A stretch of 64,000 nt of DNA, taken from Sphingosinicella soli (GTDB lineage: Bacteria; Pseudomonadota; Alphaproteobacteria; Sphingomonadales; Sphingomonadaceae). This document shows, one piece after another, positions 2,142-9,812 of the stretch. The position numbers and the translations under genes were made by a program. Within the stretch, counting starts at the first letter, position 1; each line of letters starts with the position of its first letter. The stretch covers positions 1 through 64,000 of the forward strand of contig NZ_JACHNZ010000016.1 in assembly GCF_014199685.1 (NCBI RefSeq), written 5' to 3'. The notes under the pieces are model-generated. The model did not search any database. It was not told where the DNA came from and was given only the letters and a program-made list of their open reading frames with translations.

Positions 2142-4193
2142 CTAGAAGTTCACCGCCGCGTGCTTCCAGCCGACGACGCCCAGATCCTTGTTGGGAGCCG
2201 TCTTTGCCCGCGCGGTTTCGATTTTGGAGATGGCATCGTCGAGACCGGGGACCGCGGCCAGCCATCCACGCTTGACGGCATCCTGGGCGAGTTTCAGCGA
2301 CCAATAAGCGCGCTGCACGGTGTGCTGGGCGGAACCATCGAAATTATCGGTCGGCAAGGTGTTGCCCGCGTTCGTCCACGTGATGAAGCTGTTCGTATCC
2401 GTATAGGGCAGCACGGCGCCTTCGAGGATCTGGAAACCCGATCCCGTACCCTTGCCGTAGACACCGCGCGTTCCGCCGATCTTGCCGAAACGCAGCACCA
2501 TGTTTTCGGCAATGCGCTTCAGCATCGCCGGCTCGCCCTTGGACGCGAACAGATAGGCCGCTTCCGGGCCATAGGCCTGGATCATGAAGTTGGAGTACGC
2601 CGAATCCTGATTGAGATCGATACCGCGAAAGATCGAAGACGAACGCTGGTGGGCCGAAGTGCCCGCGTCCATCGACGCGAGCTGCGATTTCCAGTCGGCG
2701 AAGACATCATCGACCATCTTCTGCGCGCGCGCCTTGGGCCACAGGATGTTGCCATTCGAACTGCTCGCGTTCTCCGCAACGTCCTGAAGTTTCCACATCG
2801 CCGACCAGACGTTCATCGTCGTGCGCTGATAGCCGAACCGCGTGCGGTAGCTGCCATCGGCATAGGAACCCTGAAAGATGCTGGCGAGCGCGTAGGCGGC
2901 AATCGCCTGTTGCAGGATCGCCGCGCGCGGATCGCCCGTGGCCAGCCAGTAGGCATAGCCGTGGTTGAACAGGTGCGCCTCGTCGCGTCCGTGCGAATAG
3001 CAGGCGCCGCCGGTGGCGCCGATCTGGCTGAGCCAGGGATAATCCGTGGGGGCGCACCATTCGCCTTCGTCTCCGAGCTGGTCCGCTTTGCTGCTGGTGC
3101 CCTCGTTGACGTAGGGCTTGTCGCCGCTGAGCGGAATCTGCGGATCGCGCAGGAGATTGTGGTTTTCCGACCAGATCGCGAGGTTCGGCAGGCCGAGGCC
3201 GTAGAGCGTCTGGATGCGGTTTTGCTGGGCGGCATCGTTGAAGACCGCGCTGTTGCCCGCGATCGCCGCAGCGATCATCACGGCATCGTCGCCGGAAATG
3301 AACCCGCGTGACGATCCGTATTCGCCGCCCGCGCCCGTGACGGCATAGGCGATCGCATTGTTCATGCCCGAACGGCCGTAGATGCGCCCGGGGACGTAGC
3401 CGATCTTGTTCTCGGTCGTGCGCTCCGTCGCGAGAGTTGGCGATTTCGACCAGCCGTCGAAGGCTGCGCTCGAATAGGGAAGCACGCGCTTGGCGGTTAC
3501 CGCGGCGCGGAGCCGCTCCATCGACGGCGCGACCGGCTCTCCGTTGTCGATGCACTTCATGCTGCCGTTCAGCACCGAGAGCCCGACCTCGACGCCGTTC
3601 ACCGACAGCGCATAGTTGCGCTCGCCGACCGACGTGTCGCTCGGCACCGCATAGCGCACGATGCAGACGCTCCACCATGTCGGGCGGCTGGATAGGCCGA
3701 ACTTGTAGGCGCGGCCGCCGCTGACCGGGCCGAGATCGCTGACCGGCCATGTGCCCGTGGGCGTGGTGATCGTATCCATCGCCTTCGCCACGAGGCTCTG
3801 GCCCGCGAGCGAAACCGTGACCGGGCCGGCAGGCATCGCCGGATCGGCCGGCGGCGGTGTGGGCGTTGGAGTCGGCGTTGGCGTTGGCGTTGGCGTGGGA
3901 GTCGGTGTCGGTGTCGGTGTCGGTGTGGGAGTAGGCGTCGGAGTGGGAGTGGGAGTCGGCGTTGGTGTGGGAGTCGGCGTCGGGGTTGGCGTCGGCGTGG
4001 GAGTCGGCGTTGGCGTCGGGGACGGATCCGACGGCGCGGGTGTCACCGAAGCGGGCGGCGTTACGGTGGCCCCCGCGTCGGTTTGCGTGCCGCTCGATCC
4101 GCCGCCGCCGCAAGCCGAGAGAAGAATGAAAGCCGATACGAAAGCGACAGAGTGACCCCGGCCGCGCAGATGCCCAGCAGAAAATGTGTTCAT
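2142..4193 (-). CDS. Lipoprotein of unknown function with a long Thr-Pro linker, first copy of a tandem pair
   Basis: The protein has about 683 residues. I chose the ATG at 4193 over a TTG at 4202 because a G-rich ribosome site precedes it. A signal peptide ends in the lipobox LLSAC followed by GGGGSS, a typical lipoprotein tether. Next come about 27 Thr-Pro dipeptides and then a domain of about 560 residues matching the downstream gene. The layout suggests a membrane-anchored domain held away from the membrane by a stiff linker. The globular part has NEGT, DEGEW and RDEAHLFNHGYAYWL motifs and four or more cysteines, but no family I recognise. Substrate and activity are unknown. Confidence 0.8.
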   Translation of the reverse strand: MNTFSAGHLRGRGHSVAFVSAFILLSACGGGGSSGTQTDAGATVTPPASVTPAPSDPSPTPTPTPTPTPTPTPTPTPTPTPTPTPTPTPTPTPTPTPTPTPTPTPTPTPTPTPPPADPAMPAGPVTVSLAGQSLVAKAMDTITTPTGTWPVSDLGPVSGGRAYKFGLSSRPTWWSVCIVRYAVPSDTSVGERNYALSVNGVEVGLSVLNGSMKCIDNGEPVAPSMERLRAAVTAKRVLPYSSAAFDGWSKSPTLATERTTENKIGYVPGRIYGRSGMNNAIAYAVTGAGGEYGSSRGFISGDDAVMIAAAIAGNSAVFNDAAQQNRIQTLYGLGLPNLAIWSENHNLLRDPQIPLSGDKPYVNEGTSSKADQLGDEGEWCAPTDYPWLSQIGATGGACYSHGRDEAHLFNHGYAYWLATGDPRAAILQQAIAAYALASIFQGSYADGSYRTRFGYQRTTMNVWSAMWKLQDVAENASSSNGNILWPKARAQKMVDDVFADWKSQLASMDAGTSAHQRSSSIFRGIDLNQDSAYSNFMIQAYGPEAAYLFASKGEPAMLKRIAENMVLRFGKIGGTRGVYGKGTGSGFQILEGAVLPYTDTNSFITWTNAGNTLPTDNFDGSAQHTVQRAYWSLKLAQDAVKRGWLAAVPGLDDAISKIETARAKTAPNKDLGVVGWKHAAVNF
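3857..4020. repeat. Hexanucleotide tandem repeat encoding the Thr-Pro linker
   Basis: About 27 units of a degenerate hexamer (GTxGGx on the plus strand, reading Thr-Pro on the minus strand) lie inside the lipoprotein gene. Third-position variation shows that selection kept the amino acids rather than an exact DNA repeat. Slippage here would change linker length in steps of two residues without a frameshift. Confidence 0.9.
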
Positions 4194-4384
4194 TGACCCC
4201 AACGACCCCTCGTTGTGACCGCAAAATTGCGGATTTGAGGGGATTCTTGGGTGCCAACTCTAAACAAATGCCTAATACATCAAGTGTCGTGCGGCACTTT
4301 GATGGTTAAGACAGCCGAAGTGATTGTAATTACGGCAACGAAATGTTGGTTAACACTTCATTAGGTTTTGGCTTCAACATTTCG

Positions 4385-5059: not shown

Positions 5060-6109
5060 TCAGGATGCCGCGCGGTTCAGAAGCCCGTGGCGGCGCATGC
5101 AGTGGCGCAATTGATCGTATGTCACCGAAAGCGCGACAGCCGCAGCACGCTGGTTGTAGCGGCAGGTTTCCAGCGTGCCGACCAGAATATCGCGTTCATA
5201 TTCCGCGACCGCCGCGCGCAGGTCGCTCACCGCGGCGCGCCTTTCGGCAGCCGCCACCGCAACGGTCGCTGCCGCTTCCACCGCTTTGGGCGCCGCATCT
5301 GGGGCCACGATCGAACCGCGCGGCCGCCAGGGCGAATCGAACGGATCGAACTGCAACGCATCCACCGGCGTCGACGGGTCTCCCCAGCGGTACAGCGCGC
5401 GCTCCACGACGTTCTTGAGCTCGCGGACGTTGCCCGGCCAGTCGTGGGCGCGCAGATTCTGGCGCGCTTCGCGGCTGAAACCGGGAAAATCCGGCCATGA
5501 CAGCTCCACGGACATGCGCCGCGCGAAATGGTTGGCAAGCTCCATGATGTCATCGGAACGCGCGCGCAGCGGCGGCAGCGTGATAACCTCGAACGAGAGC
5601 CGGTCGAGCAGATCGGCGCGGAAACGCCCCTTTTCCACAAGTCCCGGCAAATCCTCGTTGGTCGCGCCGACGATGCGCACATCGACGGAAAGCGGCCGGT
5701 TCGCGCCGAGCCGCGTCAGTTCGCCGTATTCGACGACGCGCAGCAGCCGCTCCTGCGCGGCGGAAGACAGCGTGCCCACCTCGTCGAGGAAAAGCGTGCC
5801 GCCGTCGGCTTCCTCGAACCGCCCGCGCCGGGTCGAAACCGCGCCGGTAAACGCGCCGGCCTCGTAACCGAAAAGCTCGGCATCGATCAGGGCCTCGGAC
5901 ATGGCCGCGCAGTTCATGGGAATGAACGGCTCCTCCCAGCGCGGGCTCAGCCGGTGCAGCCGCTCCGCGACCATCTCCTTGCCCGTTCCGCGCTCGCCGA
6001 TGACGAGCACGGGCCGGTTGAGCGCCGCAGCCAGACTCGCCCGCTCGATCGCATCGAGCAGCTGGGTCGATTGGCCGACAAGAGTCGCTGAGTCTTTCAT
6101 CGCCAACAC
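5060..6109 (-). CDS. pspF: Sigma-54-dependent activator of the phage-shock operon
   Basis: A bacterial enhancer-binding protein of 349 residues with no receiver domain, as in PspF. The AAA+ domain shows Walker A GERGTGKE (38-45), the sigma-54 contact loop GAFTGA (85-90) and Walker B GGTLFLDE (103-110). A Fis-type helix-turn-helix lies near the C-terminus (NQRAAAVALSVTYDQLRHCM). It is divergent from the psp genes and faces a sigma-54 promoter, the classical arrangement in which PspA inhibits PspF until membrane stress. The start is uncertain: GTG at 6109 or ATG at 6100, neither with a strong ribosome site. An Ala/Val-rich linker of about 30 residues precedes the DNA-binding domain. Confidence 0.93.
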   Translation of the reverse strand: MLAMKDSATLVGQSTQLLDAIERASLAAALNRPVLVIGERGTGKEMVAERLHRLSPRWEEPFIPMNCAAMSEALIDAELFGYEAGAFTGAVSTRRGRFEEADGGTLFLDEVGTLSSAAQERLLRVVEYGELTRLGANRPLSVDVRIVGATNEDLPGLVEKGRFRADLLDRLSFEVITLPPLRARSDDIMELANHFARRMSVELSWPDFPGFSREARQNLRAHDWPGNVRELKNVVERALYRWGDPSTPVDALQFDPFDSPWRPRGSIVAPDAAPKAVEAAATVAVAAAERRAAVSDLRAAVAEYERDILVGTLETCRYNQRAAAVALSVTYDQLRHCMRRHGLLNRAAS

Positions 6110-6110
6110 T

Positions 6111-6134
6111 TAGCGAAAAATCCCATATTTTCGC
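6111..6134. promoter_or_regulatory. Candidate upstream activating sequence for PspF
   Basis: An inverted repeat GCGAAAA (6113-6119), 8-bp spacer, TTTTCGC (6128-6134) lies about 90 bp upstream of the sigma-54 promoter, the usual distance for enhancer sites. A further related half site, TTTTGCGAA, follows near 6152. It also sits right at the pspF start, where binding could repress pspF itself. Confidence 0.45.
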
Positions 6135-6221
6135 AATATGCACTTGTGAGATTTTGCGAACTTTTGAAGCGAATTTCCTATAAATCACTGAAAATATGAT
6201 ATTTACTTTGCCGCAGAAAAA

Positions 6222-6238
6222 TTGGCACGCCCCTTGCT
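6222..6238 (+). promoter_or_regulatory. Sigma-54 promoter of the psp operon
   Basis: TTGGCACGCCCCTTGCT matches the -24/-12 consensus TGGCACG-N4-TTGCW exactly, with 10 bp between the invariant GG (6224-6225) and GC (6236-6237). It lies 50 bp upstream of the first gene and opposite pspF. Confidence 0.93.
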
Positions 6239-6288
6239 GAACAGGAAGCAACAGATTTGAAAGCAACAGTTAAACACAGGAGGCATCA

Positions 6289-6465
6289 ATGATCGCACAG
6301 GGCAACACCAACCTTTTCCGGACCTTCTTCTGCACCGTCGGTGCCGTTGCGGTCAGCTCGGTACTGCTTTTCGCCGCAGCGGGCCCCGCTCGCGCCGAAG
6401 CGCCGGCCAAGCTCGCCCAGGTTCAGATGAACACGGTTTCGACGAGCACCCCGATCATCTACTGA
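6289..6465 (+). CDS. Small exported peptide, first gene of the psp operon
   Basis: This 58-codon open frame starts at an ATG with a strong ribosome site (CAGGAGG, 6277-6283) and is the first frame after the sigma-54 promoter. The product has a basic start, a hydrophobic core (AVAVSSVLLFAAAG) and a likely signal-peptidase site after PARA, leaving a mature peptide of about 22 residues beginning EAPAKLAQVQMN and ending TPIIY. It ends 58 bp before pspA. I recognise no family. It could be a secreted or periplasmic stress peptide or a leader. The strong ribosome site and the third-position GC bias support real translation. Confidence 0.65.
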   Translation: MIAQGNTNLFRTFFCTVGAVAVSSVLLFAAAGPARAEAPAKLAQVQMNTVSTSTPIIY

Positions 6466-6523
6466 TCGGTTCGTCGACCGTTGCGCTCCGGCCGCAACCT
6501 TCAATTTCAGGAGTTCTGACCCG

Positions 6524-7195
6524 ATGGGCATTTTTTCGAGGACGCGCGACATCATCGCCGCAAACGTCACCGACCTTCTCGACCGCGCCGAAGATCCGGC
6601 GAAGATGATCCGCATGATCATCATGGAGATGGAAGAGACGCTCGTGGAAGTCCGCGCCTCCGCCGCCCGCACCATCGCGGACCAGAAGGAAATGCGCCGC
6701 ACGATCATGAAGCTGGAGCAGGCGCGGTCGACATGGGCGGAGAAAGCCGAACTCGCGCTGTCGAAGAATCGCGAGGATCTTGCCAAGGCGGCGCTGCTCG
6801 AAAAGCAGAAGATGAGCGGCAATGCCGCGCAGCTGCAGGCCGAGGTTGATCTTCTCGACGAACAGCTTTCGCACTACGAAGGCGACATCCAGAAGCTGGA
6901 AAGCAAACTTCGCGAGGCCCGCACCCGCCAGTCGGGGCTGCTTTCGCGGCTCGAGACGGCGAACAACCGGGTTCGCATGCGCAGCCTGCTGCGCGGCCCC
7001 AAGGTCGATGAAGCCTTTTCGCGCTTCGATGTGCTGGAACGCCGCGTCGATTACGCCGAAGGCCAGGTGGATGCGTTCGGGCTCGGTGAAACGCGGACCC
7101 TGGAGATGCAGATCGCCGATCTGCGCACCGACGACGCCGTCGAGGCCGAACTCGCCGCGATGAAGAGCAAGATGGCTCACAAGCAGGAGGGTTGA
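6524..7195 (+). CDS. pspA: Phage shock protein A
   Basis: This 223-residue PspA/IM30 (bacterial ESCRT-III-like) protein begins MGIFSRTRDIIAANVTDLLD, with the N-terminal amphipathic helix that binds membranes. Next come the EDPAKMIRMIIMEMEETL signature and a long coiled coil to about residue 185. It normally inhibits PspF in resting cells and oligomerises on damaged inner membrane to hold the proton-motive force. Length matches the family. It is followed 3 bp later by pspB, so the two are co-translated. Confidence 0.97.
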   Translation: MGIFSRTRDIIAANVTDLLDRAEDPAKMIRMIIMEMEETLVEVRASAARTIADQKEMRRTIMKLEQARSTWAEKAELALSKNREDLAKAALLEKQKMSGNAAQLQAEVDLLDEQLSHYEGDIQKLESKLREARTRQSGLLSRLETANNRVRMRSLLRGPKVDEAFSRFDVLERRVDYAEGQVDAFGLGETRTLEMQIADLRTDDAVEAELAAMKSKMAHKQEG

Positions 7196-7198
7196 TCG

Positions 7199-7489
7199 AT
7201 GGATGCCGCACTCGTTCCGCTCGTCGCGCTTATTGTCATCTTCATCGGGATGCCGTGGCTGTTCCTGCACTACCGGATGAAATCCAAGCAGAACCGCAGC
7301 CTTTCGATCGAGGATGAACGCATGCTCGACGATCTTCACCAGGCCGCCATGCGGCTTGAGGACCGCTTGCAGACCATCGAGCGCATCATGTCGGCCGACG
7401 ACCCCAACTGGCGTCAGATCTCGGCGGGAAGCCCCGTCGGCGAACGCCCGGACGAAACGCGCACGGCAGAGATCAGGAGGATGAAATGA
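7199..7489 (+). CDS. pspB: Phage shock protein B
   Basis: A 96-residue inner-membrane protein: one N-terminal helix (residues 4-24, VPLVALIVIFIGMPWLFL), a basic stretch, then a coiled coil with the PspB signature RLQTIERIMSADDPNWRQIS from residue 56. PspB passes the stress signal with PspC to PspA-PspF. A C-terminal tail of about 20 residues extends beyond the usual PspB end. The stop overlaps the next start (ATGA at 7486), showing translational coupling. Confidence 0.93.
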   Translation: MDAALVPLVALIVIFIGMPWLFLHYRMKSKQNRSLSIEDERMLDDLHQAAMRLEDRLQTIERIMSADDPNWRQISAGSPVGERPDETRTAEIRRMK

Positions 7490-7677
7490 GTTTCGCGCTC
7501 GACAAGACCAACGCGATGTTTCTGGGCGTCTGCGCCGGCTTCGCCCGGATGACGAATACGGATGCGCTCTGGTGGCGGATCGGCGCGGTGATCGGCACCA
7601 TCGCGGGCTTCGGCCTTCTGCCGATCGTCTACCTGCTGATCGCCTGGCTCGCCCAGCCGCGCACCCACGACGCCTGA
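7486..7677 (+). CDS. Minimal PspC-domain membrane protein
   Basis: The 63-residue product is little more than a PspC domain: a short N-terminus (FALDKTNAMFLGVCAGFARM), the conserved LWWRIGAV, and a C-terminal transmembrane helix (GLLPIVYLLIAWL). It lacks the basic N-terminal tail and the cytoplasmic C-terminal region of the next PspC. The start overlaps the pspB stop by 4 bp. It probably acts as a second PspC-like membrane sensor or partner. Confidence 0.85.
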   Translation: MSFALDKTNAMFLGVCAGFARMTNTDALWWRIGAVIGTIAGFGLLPIVYLLIAWLAQPRTHDA

Positions 7678-7699
7678 TACGACACGACGGGAGAGCCCC

Positions 7700-8077
7700 A
7701 TGTCCAGCCGCACCAAATTCTATCTCAACAAGCGCGAGAAAAAGTGGATGGGCGTGTGCTCCGGCCTCGCGGACTTCACGGGGATCGATGTTCTCTGGTG
7801 GCGCGTCGGCGCCGTTCTGGGCACGATACTGGGCGCGGGCATCCTGCCGATCGCCTATCTGGTGATCGGCCTGATGGCTTCGGACAAGCCTTCGGAATTC
7901 TACAGCGAGAGCGTCGTGGACCAGAAGTTCTGGCAGAAGGTGCGCGTGGCGCCGAGCCGTTCGATCCGCGACGTCCACGCGAGCTTCCGCGATGTAGACC
8001 GCCGGCTCGCGCATATCGAGCGGCATTATACGTCGCAGAACACGCGGCTCGCGAACGAGATCGACAGTCTTCGCTAG
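7700..8077 (+). CDS. pspC: Phage shock protein C
   Basis: A 125-residue PspC: KFYLNKREKKWMGVCSGLAD with LWWRVGAVLG is the PspC domain (about 5-60), including the hydrophobic segment LPIAYLVIGLM. A cytoplasmic or periplasmic tail follows, ending in a coiled coil RLAHIERHYTSQNTRLANEI (from residue 102). That tail closely resembles the C-termini of the next three genes and of PspB. PspC works with PspB to detect membrane stress and release PspF from PspA. Confidence 0.93.
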   Translation: MSSRTKFYLNKREKKWMGVCSGLADFTGIDVLWWRVGAVLGTILGAGILPIAYLVIGLMASDKPSEFYSESVVDQKFWQKVRVAPSRSIRDVHASFRDVDRRLAHIERHYTSQNTRLANEIDSLR

Positions 8078-8107
8078 CGCGGGGACGAGACTGGGGGACC
8101 GTGAACC

Positions 8108-8395
8108 ATGCCTGCCGAAGTCGGATTTCTGATCGGTCTCCTTGCCGGAGCCGTGGGCATGTGGCTGCTGCATGTGTCCGCCCGCCGCGGCGCGGCAGGC
8201 GAACCTGCCGAAGCCCCCGCCGAGACGCCCGTGTTCAGCTTCGAACGTGAGCTGGAGACGCGCCGCCTCGCAGCGGAGAACGCCGCCCTGATGACCCAGA
8301 TGGAAGACGTGCGCGAACGCCTGGCGACGCTCGAACGTCTGGCGATCGACCGCTCGTCACGGCTCGCCGACGAAATAGAGGCCCTGAGGGCCTAG
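8108..8395 (+). CDS. Small one-helix membrane protein with PspB-like C-terminal coiled coil
   Basis: The protein has 95 residues. An N-terminal helix (EVGFLIGLLAGAVGMWLLHV) is followed by a Pro/Glu/Ala linker and a coiled coil ending RLATLERLAIDRSSRLADEI (from residue 71). The terminal module aligns with the PspC tail, with the next two gene products and, more loosely, with PspB. I do not recognise a named family for the whole protein. It lies 30 bp after pspC and is presumably driven by the same sigma-54 promoter, so a role in membrane-stress sensing is the natural inference. Confidence 0.85.
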   Translation: MPAEVGFLIGLLAGAVGMWLLHVSARRGAAGEPAEAPAETPVFSFERELETRRLAAENAALMTQMEDVRERLATLERLAIDRSSRLADEIEALRA

Positions 8396-8414
8396 CAGAA
8401 CAAGGGACAGGATC

Positions 8415-8741
8415 ATGGACATCTTCATCTACCCCTATCTTCCCTGGATCGTCGGCGGCGGCCTTGCGCTCGGCGCGCTCGCCATCGCGGGCTGGGTGTT
8501 CACGACGTGGATACGCATCAAGCACGGCTACCCGCTGGAAAACGCCTGGGGCATGGCCGTGCATCCGAAGGTTTCGACCGAGGCGCAGGAACGCATCACG
8601 CTGCTCACCAGCGAAAACGTCCAGCTCCGCGCCGAACTCGGCAGCGTCAAGGACCGGCTCGCCACGATCGAGCGCATCGTCACCGACGGATCCTTCAGGC
8701 TGGAAAACGAGATCGAACAGCTTCGCGGCCCGAAAAACTGA
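8415..8741 (+). CDS. Small one-helix membrane protein with PspB-like C-terminal coiled coil
   Basis: The protein has 108 residues. A helix at about 8-32 (LPWIVGGGLALGALAIAGWVF) is followed by a basic stretch, YPLENAWGMAVHPK, then a coiled coil ending RLATIERIVTDGSFRLENEI (from residue 81). The architecture is that of PspB (one helix plus a cytoplasmic coiled coil), with a different middle region. It starts 19 bp after the previous gene. Probably another adaptor in the psp response; its partner is unknown. Confidence 0.85.
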   Translation: MDIFIYPYLPWIVGGGLALGALAIAGWVFTTWIRIKHGYPLENAWGMAVHPKVSTEAQERITLLTSENVQLRAELGSVKDRLATIERIVTDGSFRLENEIEQLRGPKN

Positions 8742-8771
8742 GCCTGCGGAGCAACAGGGAAAGAGCGACCG

Positions 8772-9005
8772 ATGCACGTATTCGAAATGGTGGTTCTGAT
8801 CGTCGCGATCGCGGTGTTCGGCAACATCGTGCTCCAGCACATGAAGCAGAAAGGCCGGGCGCGGCCCGATGCCGAGGTCGAAAACGACCGCCTGCGCGGC
8901 GAGATCGGCAACCTGAAGGATCGGATTGCGACGCTGGAACGCCTGGCGACCGACAAGAGCCGGCGCCTGGCCGACGAAATCGATGCGCTTGGGCGCGATC
9001 GGTAG
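8772..9005 (+). CDS. Small PspB-like membrane protein
   Basis: The protein has 77 residues: an N-terminal helix (FEMVVLIVAIAVFGNIVLQHM), a basic turn, and a coiled coil ending RIATLERLATDKSRRLADEI (from residue 51). In size and layout it is the nearest of the extra genes to PspB itself, but it lacks the terminal PxW of PspB. It lies 30 bp after its neighbour. Function is inferred only from architecture and position. Confidence 0.85.
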   Translation: MHVFEMVVLIVAIAVFGNIVLQHMKQKGRARPDAEVENDRLRGEIGNLKDRIATLERLATDKSRRLADEIDALGRDR

Positions 9006-9021
9006 AAAGGGAGTGACGGAC

Positions 9022-9252
9022 ATGCCCGGATTTGAAAGTCTGATCGTCATCACCGCCGGGGCGATGCTGAGCCTCGGCATGCTCGCCGGTATCGCCGCCT
9101 GGTGCTGGAAAGGCTGGCTCGAACTCAAGCGCGCGGAACTCGGGAACGGCAGACCGGCCGTAAACCCGGCCGTATCCGGCAGGATCGACGTCGCCGACCT
9201 GAAAGAGCGCGTGAAGAAGCTGGAAGCGATCGCCGCCGGCGTCGATTACTGA
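9022..9252 (+). CDS. Small membrane protein, last gene of the extended psp operon
   Basis: The protein has 76 residues. I place the start at the ATG at 9022, 16 bp after the previous stop, because the hydrophobic helix (SLIVITAGAMLSLGMLAGIAAW) begins just inside it. A shorter relative of the coiled-coil module closes the protein (DLKERVKKLEAIAAGVDY), without the second half seen in its neighbours. A GC-rich hairpin without a T-run follows at 9336-9354, so the operon end is not certain. Confidence 0.8.
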   Translation: MPGFESLIVITAGAMLSLGMLAGIAAWCWKGWLELKRAELGNGRPAVNPAVSGRIDVADLKERVKKLEAIAAGVDY

Positions 9253-9395
9253 GCGTCAGCCCAGCACGTGCAGGCCCGATTCCGTTCGTTTCTCCCGACC
9301 ATGGCGGCAAGACGTGTGATCGCGTTCATACCGCTCGGGGCCGGCCTCGCCCCGGCTTGACGCGGCGGCATCGCGCGCCCAAGTCTGCGGCCACG

Positions 9396-9812
9396 ATGAC
9401 GCTGCCAGACTTCAACACCCTTCGCGACGATTTCGAAATCCTCGACGAGCCCGACGACCGCTACCGGCTGCTCATCGATCTGGGCAAAGCGCTGGAGCCG
9501 ATGCCCGACGCGCTGAAGACCGACGCCACCAAGGTGCGCGGCTGCTCGGCAAGCGTATGGGTGTATCCGACCGCAGCGGAAAAGGGCCGGCTGCACTTCC
9601 TCGCCGACAGCAACGCCGCAATCACCAAGGGCATCGTCGCGCTGATCCTGACGCTGGTGCAGGACCGCACGGCGGAGGAGGTGCTGGCGCTCGACATCGC
9701 CGAAGAACTCGCGCCGTTCGCGCTTGCCAAGCACCTGTCGTCGAACCGCACGCAGGGGATCCCGAACATGATCGCGCTCATCCGCGAAACCGCCGCCCGG
9801 CTTGCGGCATGA
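9396..9812 (+). CDS. sufE: Cysteine desulfuration protein SufE
   Basis: A 138-residue SufE: it accepts sulfane sulfur from the desulfurase SufS on a conserved cysteine and passes it to the SufBCD scaffold for Fe-S cluster assembly. The active Cys is Cys50 in VRGCSASVW, and the family motif LSSNRTQGIPNM lies near the C-terminus. The suf operon itself is not in the window. The stop overlaps the next start (ATGA), linking it with two thioesterase genes. Confidence 0.95.
   Translation: MTLPDFNTLRDDFEILDEPDDRYRLLIDLGKALEPMPDALKTDATKVRGCSASVWVYPTAAEKGRLHFLADSNAAITKGIVALILTLVQDRTAEEVLALDIAEELAPFALAKHLSSNRTQGIPNMIALIRETAARLAA

Follow-up and report, generated by a model that had tools for sequence, protein, structure and literature searches.

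The Psp system and an enlarged psp operon in Sphingosinicella soli

The passing of signals from PspB and PspC to PspA in the phage-shock (psp) response, which counters damage to the inner membrane, has been argued mainly from two enterobacterial proteins. PspD and PspG are extra small proteins of the enterobacterial psp regulon. Here, we describe a psp operon of the sphingomonad Sphingosinicella soli in which the pspC gene is followed by four extra genes for proteins of 95, 108, 77 and 76 amino acids (aa). The operon lies in the first 64,000 nucleotides of contig 16 of the 3.76-Mb genome, and this whole stretch is called the window in the following. The extra proteins are not known to resemble PspD or PspG. 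Sequence comparisons identify the extras as a family of predicted small one-helix proteins of the inner membrane. Their cytoplasmic end shares homology with the C-terminal PspC tail and, with less certainty, with PspB. Judging from the layout and the protein classes found in relatives, the sphingomonad psp operon has amplified the extras as whole genes into stable anchor classes. With about as much doubt as confidence, we favour the reading that this recruited and amplified family works as extra membrane adaptors.

The closest described relatives are PspB and PspC themselves (TIGR02976, TIGR02978; PF06667, PF04024). Like these, the extras are predicted to be small inner-membrane proteins, encoded in the same operon and carrying a homologous cytoplasmic tail. 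Unlike PspB and PspC, they do not reach the curated cut-offs and have no PspC domain; their anchors are different, and 1-9 copies are found per genome. A recent paper (Ravi et al. 2024, PMC11237479) has already mentioned "PspB duplicates" in a psp operon, in a single clause of the accessible text that gives the accession AOL22920.1. They are very likely the same phenomenon. The same part of the text has nothing on classes, a range of copy numbers, a terminal gene, a leader gene or co-occurrence. Among open-licence main texts, this paper was the only match to six PspB phrases, no paper with both "PspB" and "Sphingomonad" was found, and neither the amplified family nor its classes nor the terminal gene were described in any text retrieved. 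Moreover, "sphingomon" is absent from the accessible main text of a survey from 2022 (PMC9239133).

A tail module shared with PspC

The preliminary description, made from the letters of the window, listed two PspC-domain genes and four extra genes behind pspA-pspB, and it quoted an alignable block of 20 residues from five proteins. The gene set and the lengths are as described and all five blocks can be read in the translations, the module being present in only one of the two PspC-domain genes, the 125-aa pspC. For evaluating the similarity, a profile (A1) of 69 rows was derived from the C-terminal 60 residues of extra genes only. A six-frame search of the whole genome with A1 gave six matches at an expectation value (E) of at most 10. 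The extra genes of 95, 108 and 77 aa ranked first (4.4e-19 to 7.4e-16), followed by PspC (0.0099) and PspB (0.158) of the same operon and then by one place elsewhere (0.306). Weak matches (E 1e-5 to 0.3) were also counted by hand in 21 genomes of the genus and the family (G005 without any match). Of the 42 weak matches, 23 belong to the psp locus, which occupies a few kilobases out of some 3 Mb, and fall into PspC, PspB or its 76-aa gene. Another 17 lie at other places and two are ambiguous; for three of the 17, the E-value is better than that of most matches to PspC.

A1 was also compared with the cytoplasmic parts of the Psp proteins by profile-profile alignment using hhalign, and 150 shuffled versions of A1, permuted by blocks of seven columns, served as a control. 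The score against the PspC tail (38.2) was reached by none of the shuffles (mean 22.2, maximum 34.4). The scores against PspB (26.6), the 76-aa protein (26.6) and PspA (18.6) were reached by 11, 5 and 16 of the 150 shuffles, respectively. The reversed A1 scored 19.1 against PspC, 14.7 against PspB, 16.3 against the 76-aa protein and 11.1 against PspA. Because of the genome-wide ranking, the weak-match count and the shuffle scores, we regard the homology of the module to the PspC tail as firm and that to PspB and to the terminal 76-aa gene, which are weaker links, as probable. The claim that five proteins share a homologous module is borne out to this extent, and we assign the extras to a PspB/PspC tail superfamily, a grouping coined here in which the PspC link is the one reached by no shuffle.

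It is conceivable that the common block reflects nothing but generic coiled-coil similarity. The modest scores of PspB and the 76-aa protein against the shuffles would agree with this, as would the 17 weak matches outside psp and a sequence-based profile search of solved structures, in which generic coiled coils were the only matches (best ZapA, E 0.003). However, the genome-wide ranking and the shuffle result for the PspC tail argue for a module beyond generic similarity. Furthermore, a hidden Markov model (HMM) of the module was run at E<=0.1 over the 9681 open reading frames (ORFs) of 83 loci, setting aside ORFs that are better fitted by another psp model. Outside psp arrays, it found only two orphan genes in L091, a fragment in L052 and one long coiled-coil ORF in L092, a locus that had been included because of its weak match. 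We therefore consider the generic explanation very improbable.

At the level of family profiles, the module is nearest to the PspC tail, and this extends to the second half (EI..LR), which is absent from PspB and the 76-aa protein. Scans of single proteins gave a mixed picture. For some extras, the PspB model fits better over the whole length (L037, 4.9e-5; L040, 2.3e-4), and others favour the PspC tail (108-aa protein of the window, 9e-4), all of them under the curated cut-offs. With the PspB models (TIGR02976, PF06667), the 77-aa protein reached 16.5 bits (cut-off 51.7) and the best relative tested 23.5 bits, and the proteins of 95, 108 and 76 aa had no match. With the PspC model TIGR02978, the 108-aa protein reached 19.1 bits (cut-off 104), in tail positions only. 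The extra proteins had no match to PF04024, so that a PspC domain was not found in them. Altogether, the NCBIfam cut-offs are passed by PspF, PspA, PspB and the 125-aa PspC and by none of the four extra proteins.

Conservation of the extra genes beside psp

The distribution of the extras was determined in a draw of 199 genomes of the family, with thresholds of E<=1e-20 for PspA and E<=1e-6 for the module. PspA was detected in 186 genomes and the module in 182 (1 to 9 matches each); both occur in 181 genomes and neither in 12. Hence, module genes are present in 181 of the 186 PspA-positive genomes vs one of the 13 PspA-negative genomes. The latter is G397, which is 66% complete. Five genomes (G364, G390, G410, G430, G502) have PspA without a module match. 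This co-occurrence bears on an alternative in which the extras, together with PspB and PspC, act independently of PspA as an effector patch, directly on damaged membrane or misplaced pores. It has been reported that Yersinia needs PspB and PspC and not PspA against misplaced secretins, according to the accessible part of that paper (PMC5596341). However, PspA is present in nearly all genomes with extras, which leaves the effector patch doubtful in our view.

Among the 83 loci that were scanned, 79 are psp loci of the family; the fetched loci were mostly picked for having matches and show the layout rather than its frequency. Extra module genes are found in 77 of the 79 (1-8 per locus, 303 in all) and not in L100 and L101. 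The terminal 76-aa gene is present in 75 of the 79 and not in L040 (contig end), L059, L100 and L103. Wherever these genes are found, the order is pspA-pspB-pspC, the extra module genes, the 76-aa gene and the gene that we take to be sufE. With start codons assigned by rule, neighbouring genes of the stretch from pspC to the 76-aa gene are separated by a median of 13 nucleotides, 160 of the 379 pairs being directly adjoining or overlapping. In all four congener loci, pspC and the 95-aa gene are separated by one further extra gene of 99-101 aa that has no counterpart in the window. Thus, the extra genes are kept beside psp in relatives. Neither of the two findings that the preliminary description had named as refuting it, a merely generic coiled-coil similarity and a lack of conservation beside psp, was obtained.

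The extra genes are under purifying selection. Window genes were compared with those of three or four congeners, and the pspC1 row of L033 was dropped because different genes had been compared. The ratio of nonsynonymous to synonymous substitution rates (Ka/Ks) was 0.108-0.214 for the 95-aa gene, 0.080-0.119 for the 108-aa gene, 0.103-0.147 for the 77-aa gene and 0.138-0.210 for the 76-aa gene, with 0.089-0.143 for pspB.

A single hydrophobic stretch is present in 279 of the 303 extra proteins, and 264 have a charge bias that places the tail in the cytoplasm. A structural model of the 108-aa protein has helices at residues 9-37 and 55-103 (predicted local distance difference test (pLDDT) 76, predicted template modelling score (pTM) 0.32), and a model of PspC has terminal helices at 85-113 and 115-124 (pLDDT 66, pTM 0.35). 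The anchors fall into distinct conserved classes marked by motifs of their own next to the membrane, for example GYPL in the class of the 108-aa protein.

Origin of the extra genes

According to the preliminary description, duplication and shuffling of the module onto different anchors may have built a multi-input sensor of membrane stress or a hetero-coiled-coil scaffold at the membrane. Anchors and modules were therefore compared in 167 extra genes from dereplicated loci. In no case was the nearest anchor found in the same genome, and the nearest module was found there in 5.4% (shuffled mean 2.1%, maximum 7.2%). For 137 genes of four classes, the nearest module came from a gene of the same anchor class in 95.6% of cases, compared with 32% on average (maximum 46%) after shuffling. 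Since modules follow anchors and neither is often nearest within a genome, we conclude that whole genes were duplicated and then diverged into stable classes. The duplication part of the proposal is thus upheld, and the shuffling of modules among anchors is not supported, with room left for rare and old exchanges. The nearest tail lies in the same genome in 9.6% vs a shuffled mean of 2.2% (maximum 7.2%), pointing to slight homogenisation of tails within genomes. Two adjacent extra genes in L095 share 50 identical nucleotides over the module, the longest such stretch between paralogs of one locus and a sign of local copying.

Module genes are also found outside the family. In a draw from the order, 120 of 147 genomes match at E<=1e-6, of which 64 belong to the same family (1-6 matches) and 56 to other families (1 or 2). 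The inspected orphans of other families are PspB-like or 77-aa-like and have varied neighbours, and the stretches fetched around them contain no psp gene. Conversely, three psp loci of other families (L094, L156, L157) have no extra gene. The genome G047 contains one orphan copy (L147) and one copy directly behind psp genes (L148), which is what recruitment would give. In a draw from the phylum, 27 of 299 genomes match at E<=1e-5: 13 of the same family, two (G241 and G787) of a different family in the class and 12 outside the class, the latter with 1-2 module matches each. A class-wide draw gave 10 of 289 genomes at E<=1e-3, which understates the spread because at most 22 candidates per genome were scored and its list is without the other-family matches of the order. 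Five of its matches are weak (E 2e-5 to 9e-4), and the three that were fetched turned out to be the L092 ORF, a locus without a match (L093) and a plain pspABC operon (L094). The mostly single orphan copies elsewhere suggest that the module was recruited into psp and then amplified, and we infer the direction from orphan to operon.

Nine loci of seven of the 12 genomes from outside the class (within L242-L252) encode orphan one-helix proteins with the same tail, including one tandem pair (L246). G241 and G787 have two small module genes in tandem (L091, 6227-6709; L253, 3871-4365) with no psp gene found there; in L091, they are preceded by genes that resemble coaBC and dut on visual inspection.

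Promoter and leader gene

With a divergent pspF, a sigma54-type promoter and the order pspA-pspB-pspC, the locus is a classical PspF-PspABC operon. Among the loci with at least 300 bases before pspA (n=79), a sigma54-type site was found in 77 when up to one mismatch was allowed (shuffled mean 0.6, maximum 2), the misses being L101 and L094, which is from another family. This is relevant for the suggestion of the preliminary description that the extras build a multi-input sensor, each anchor sensing a different membrane disturbance and signalling via the common tail to PspA-PspF. The distinct anchor classes with their membrane-side motifs would suit a sensor. However, the extras stand behind the same sigma54-type promoter, so most of the product should appear after the alarm, and their copy number varies from 1 to 9 among related genomes. 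A sensor therefore seems unlikely to us.

In 68 of 74 loci, the region from the sigma54-type site to pspA contains a short ORF with a hydrophobic N-terminus, a count made without a random control. The 58-aa leader of the window, which falls within the interval of the preliminary description but is not mentioned in it, shares 74-79% identity with its genus relatives. The leader ORF is long in L035, L056, L057 and L104, and that of L035, the only long leader scanned, carries a TonB C-terminal domain (TIGR01352, 33.7 bits, cut-off 27.1). In Zymomonas mobilis, ethanol raises pspA, pspB and pspC, and the hypothetical gene ZMO1062 was grouped by the authors with the psp genes ZMO1061 and ZMO1063-1065, according to the accessible part of the report (PMC3495753). 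It is a guess that ZMO1062 is the counterpart of the leader gene. One may also speculate, with little confidence, that the PspB-PspC pair became a lineage-tuned membrane platform of many subunits in sphingomonads, in which up to eight distinct anchors with a common tail and the near-constant half-module protein at the end of the array form a hetero-coiled-coil lattice for PspA assembly, to which the leader, with a TonB-type periplasmic domain in some genera, would add periplasmic input.

The extras as possible membrane adaptors

In the adaptor reading, the tails of the extras would take part in the coiled-coil contacts that the PspB and PspC tails make, and would keep PspA at the membrane after induction of the operon. 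Each class would be a differently anchored docking site for PspA, providing more capacity and positive feedback. We arrive at this reading because of the module homology, the co-occurrence with PspA, the position in the operon with short gaps, the predicted topology and the purifying selection. Several points weigh against it. The contacts of the extras with PspA, PspB and PspC are putative, and the solved structures matched are generic coiled coils, as described above. The orphan copies away from psp in other families suggest that the tail may have other partners. Moreover, two of the five PspA genomes without a module match were inspected and have an operon without extra genes, so that the extras are dispensable there. 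Our confidence is no higher because of these dispensable cases and the mixed single-protein scans.

The sphingomonad loci can be considered a natural experiment on the elaboration of a membrane-stress system, in which a single operon combines from one to eight related tails with different anchors. Together with natural loci that have none (G364, G390), they open the way to asking which tail residues are required, whether the dose or the diversity of the anchors is important and what role the nearly constant terminal protein plays. Many small proteins left nameless by the family models searched are now grouped.

Features of the window

Table 1 Features of the psp locus in the window
Feature	Position	Strand	Evidence
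pspF, divergent sigma54 activator	5060..6109	-	TIGR02974 474.1 bits, cut-off 443.55
Sigma54-type promoter TGGCAC-N5-TTGCT	6223..6238	+	Exact match to TGGCAC-N5-TTGCW
58-aa leader ORF, signal-peptide-like N-terminus	6289..6465	+	Hydrophobic N-terminal stretch; counterparts in relatives
pspA	6524..7195	+	TIGR02977 277.7 bits, cut-off 242.95
pspB, carrying the first half of the module	7199..7489	+	TIGR02976 79.9 bits, cut-off 51.7
63-aa PspC-domain gene without module	7486..7677	+	PF04024 47.7 bits, cut-off 25
pspC (125 aa), C-terminal module	7700..8077	+	TIGR02978 109.2 bits, cut-off 104
Extra gene, 95 aa, one helix and module	8108..8395	+	A1 E 7.4e-16, itself an A1 row; no family match
Extra gene, 108 aa, one helix and module	8415..8741	+	A1 E 4.4e-19, itself an A1 row
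Extra gene, 77 aa, one helix and module; class with orphan relatives	8772..9005	+	A1 E 2.2e-18, itself an A1 row
Terminal gene, 76 aa, one helix and half module	9022..9252	+	hhalign 26.6; in 75 of 79 fetched family psp loci
Downstream gene, presumably sufE	9396-9812		

No structural RNA was found at 6000-9500 by Rfam at the gathering score. On the minus strand, an ORF of 686 aa at 2142-4202 contains a long threonine-proline repeat after its N-terminus.

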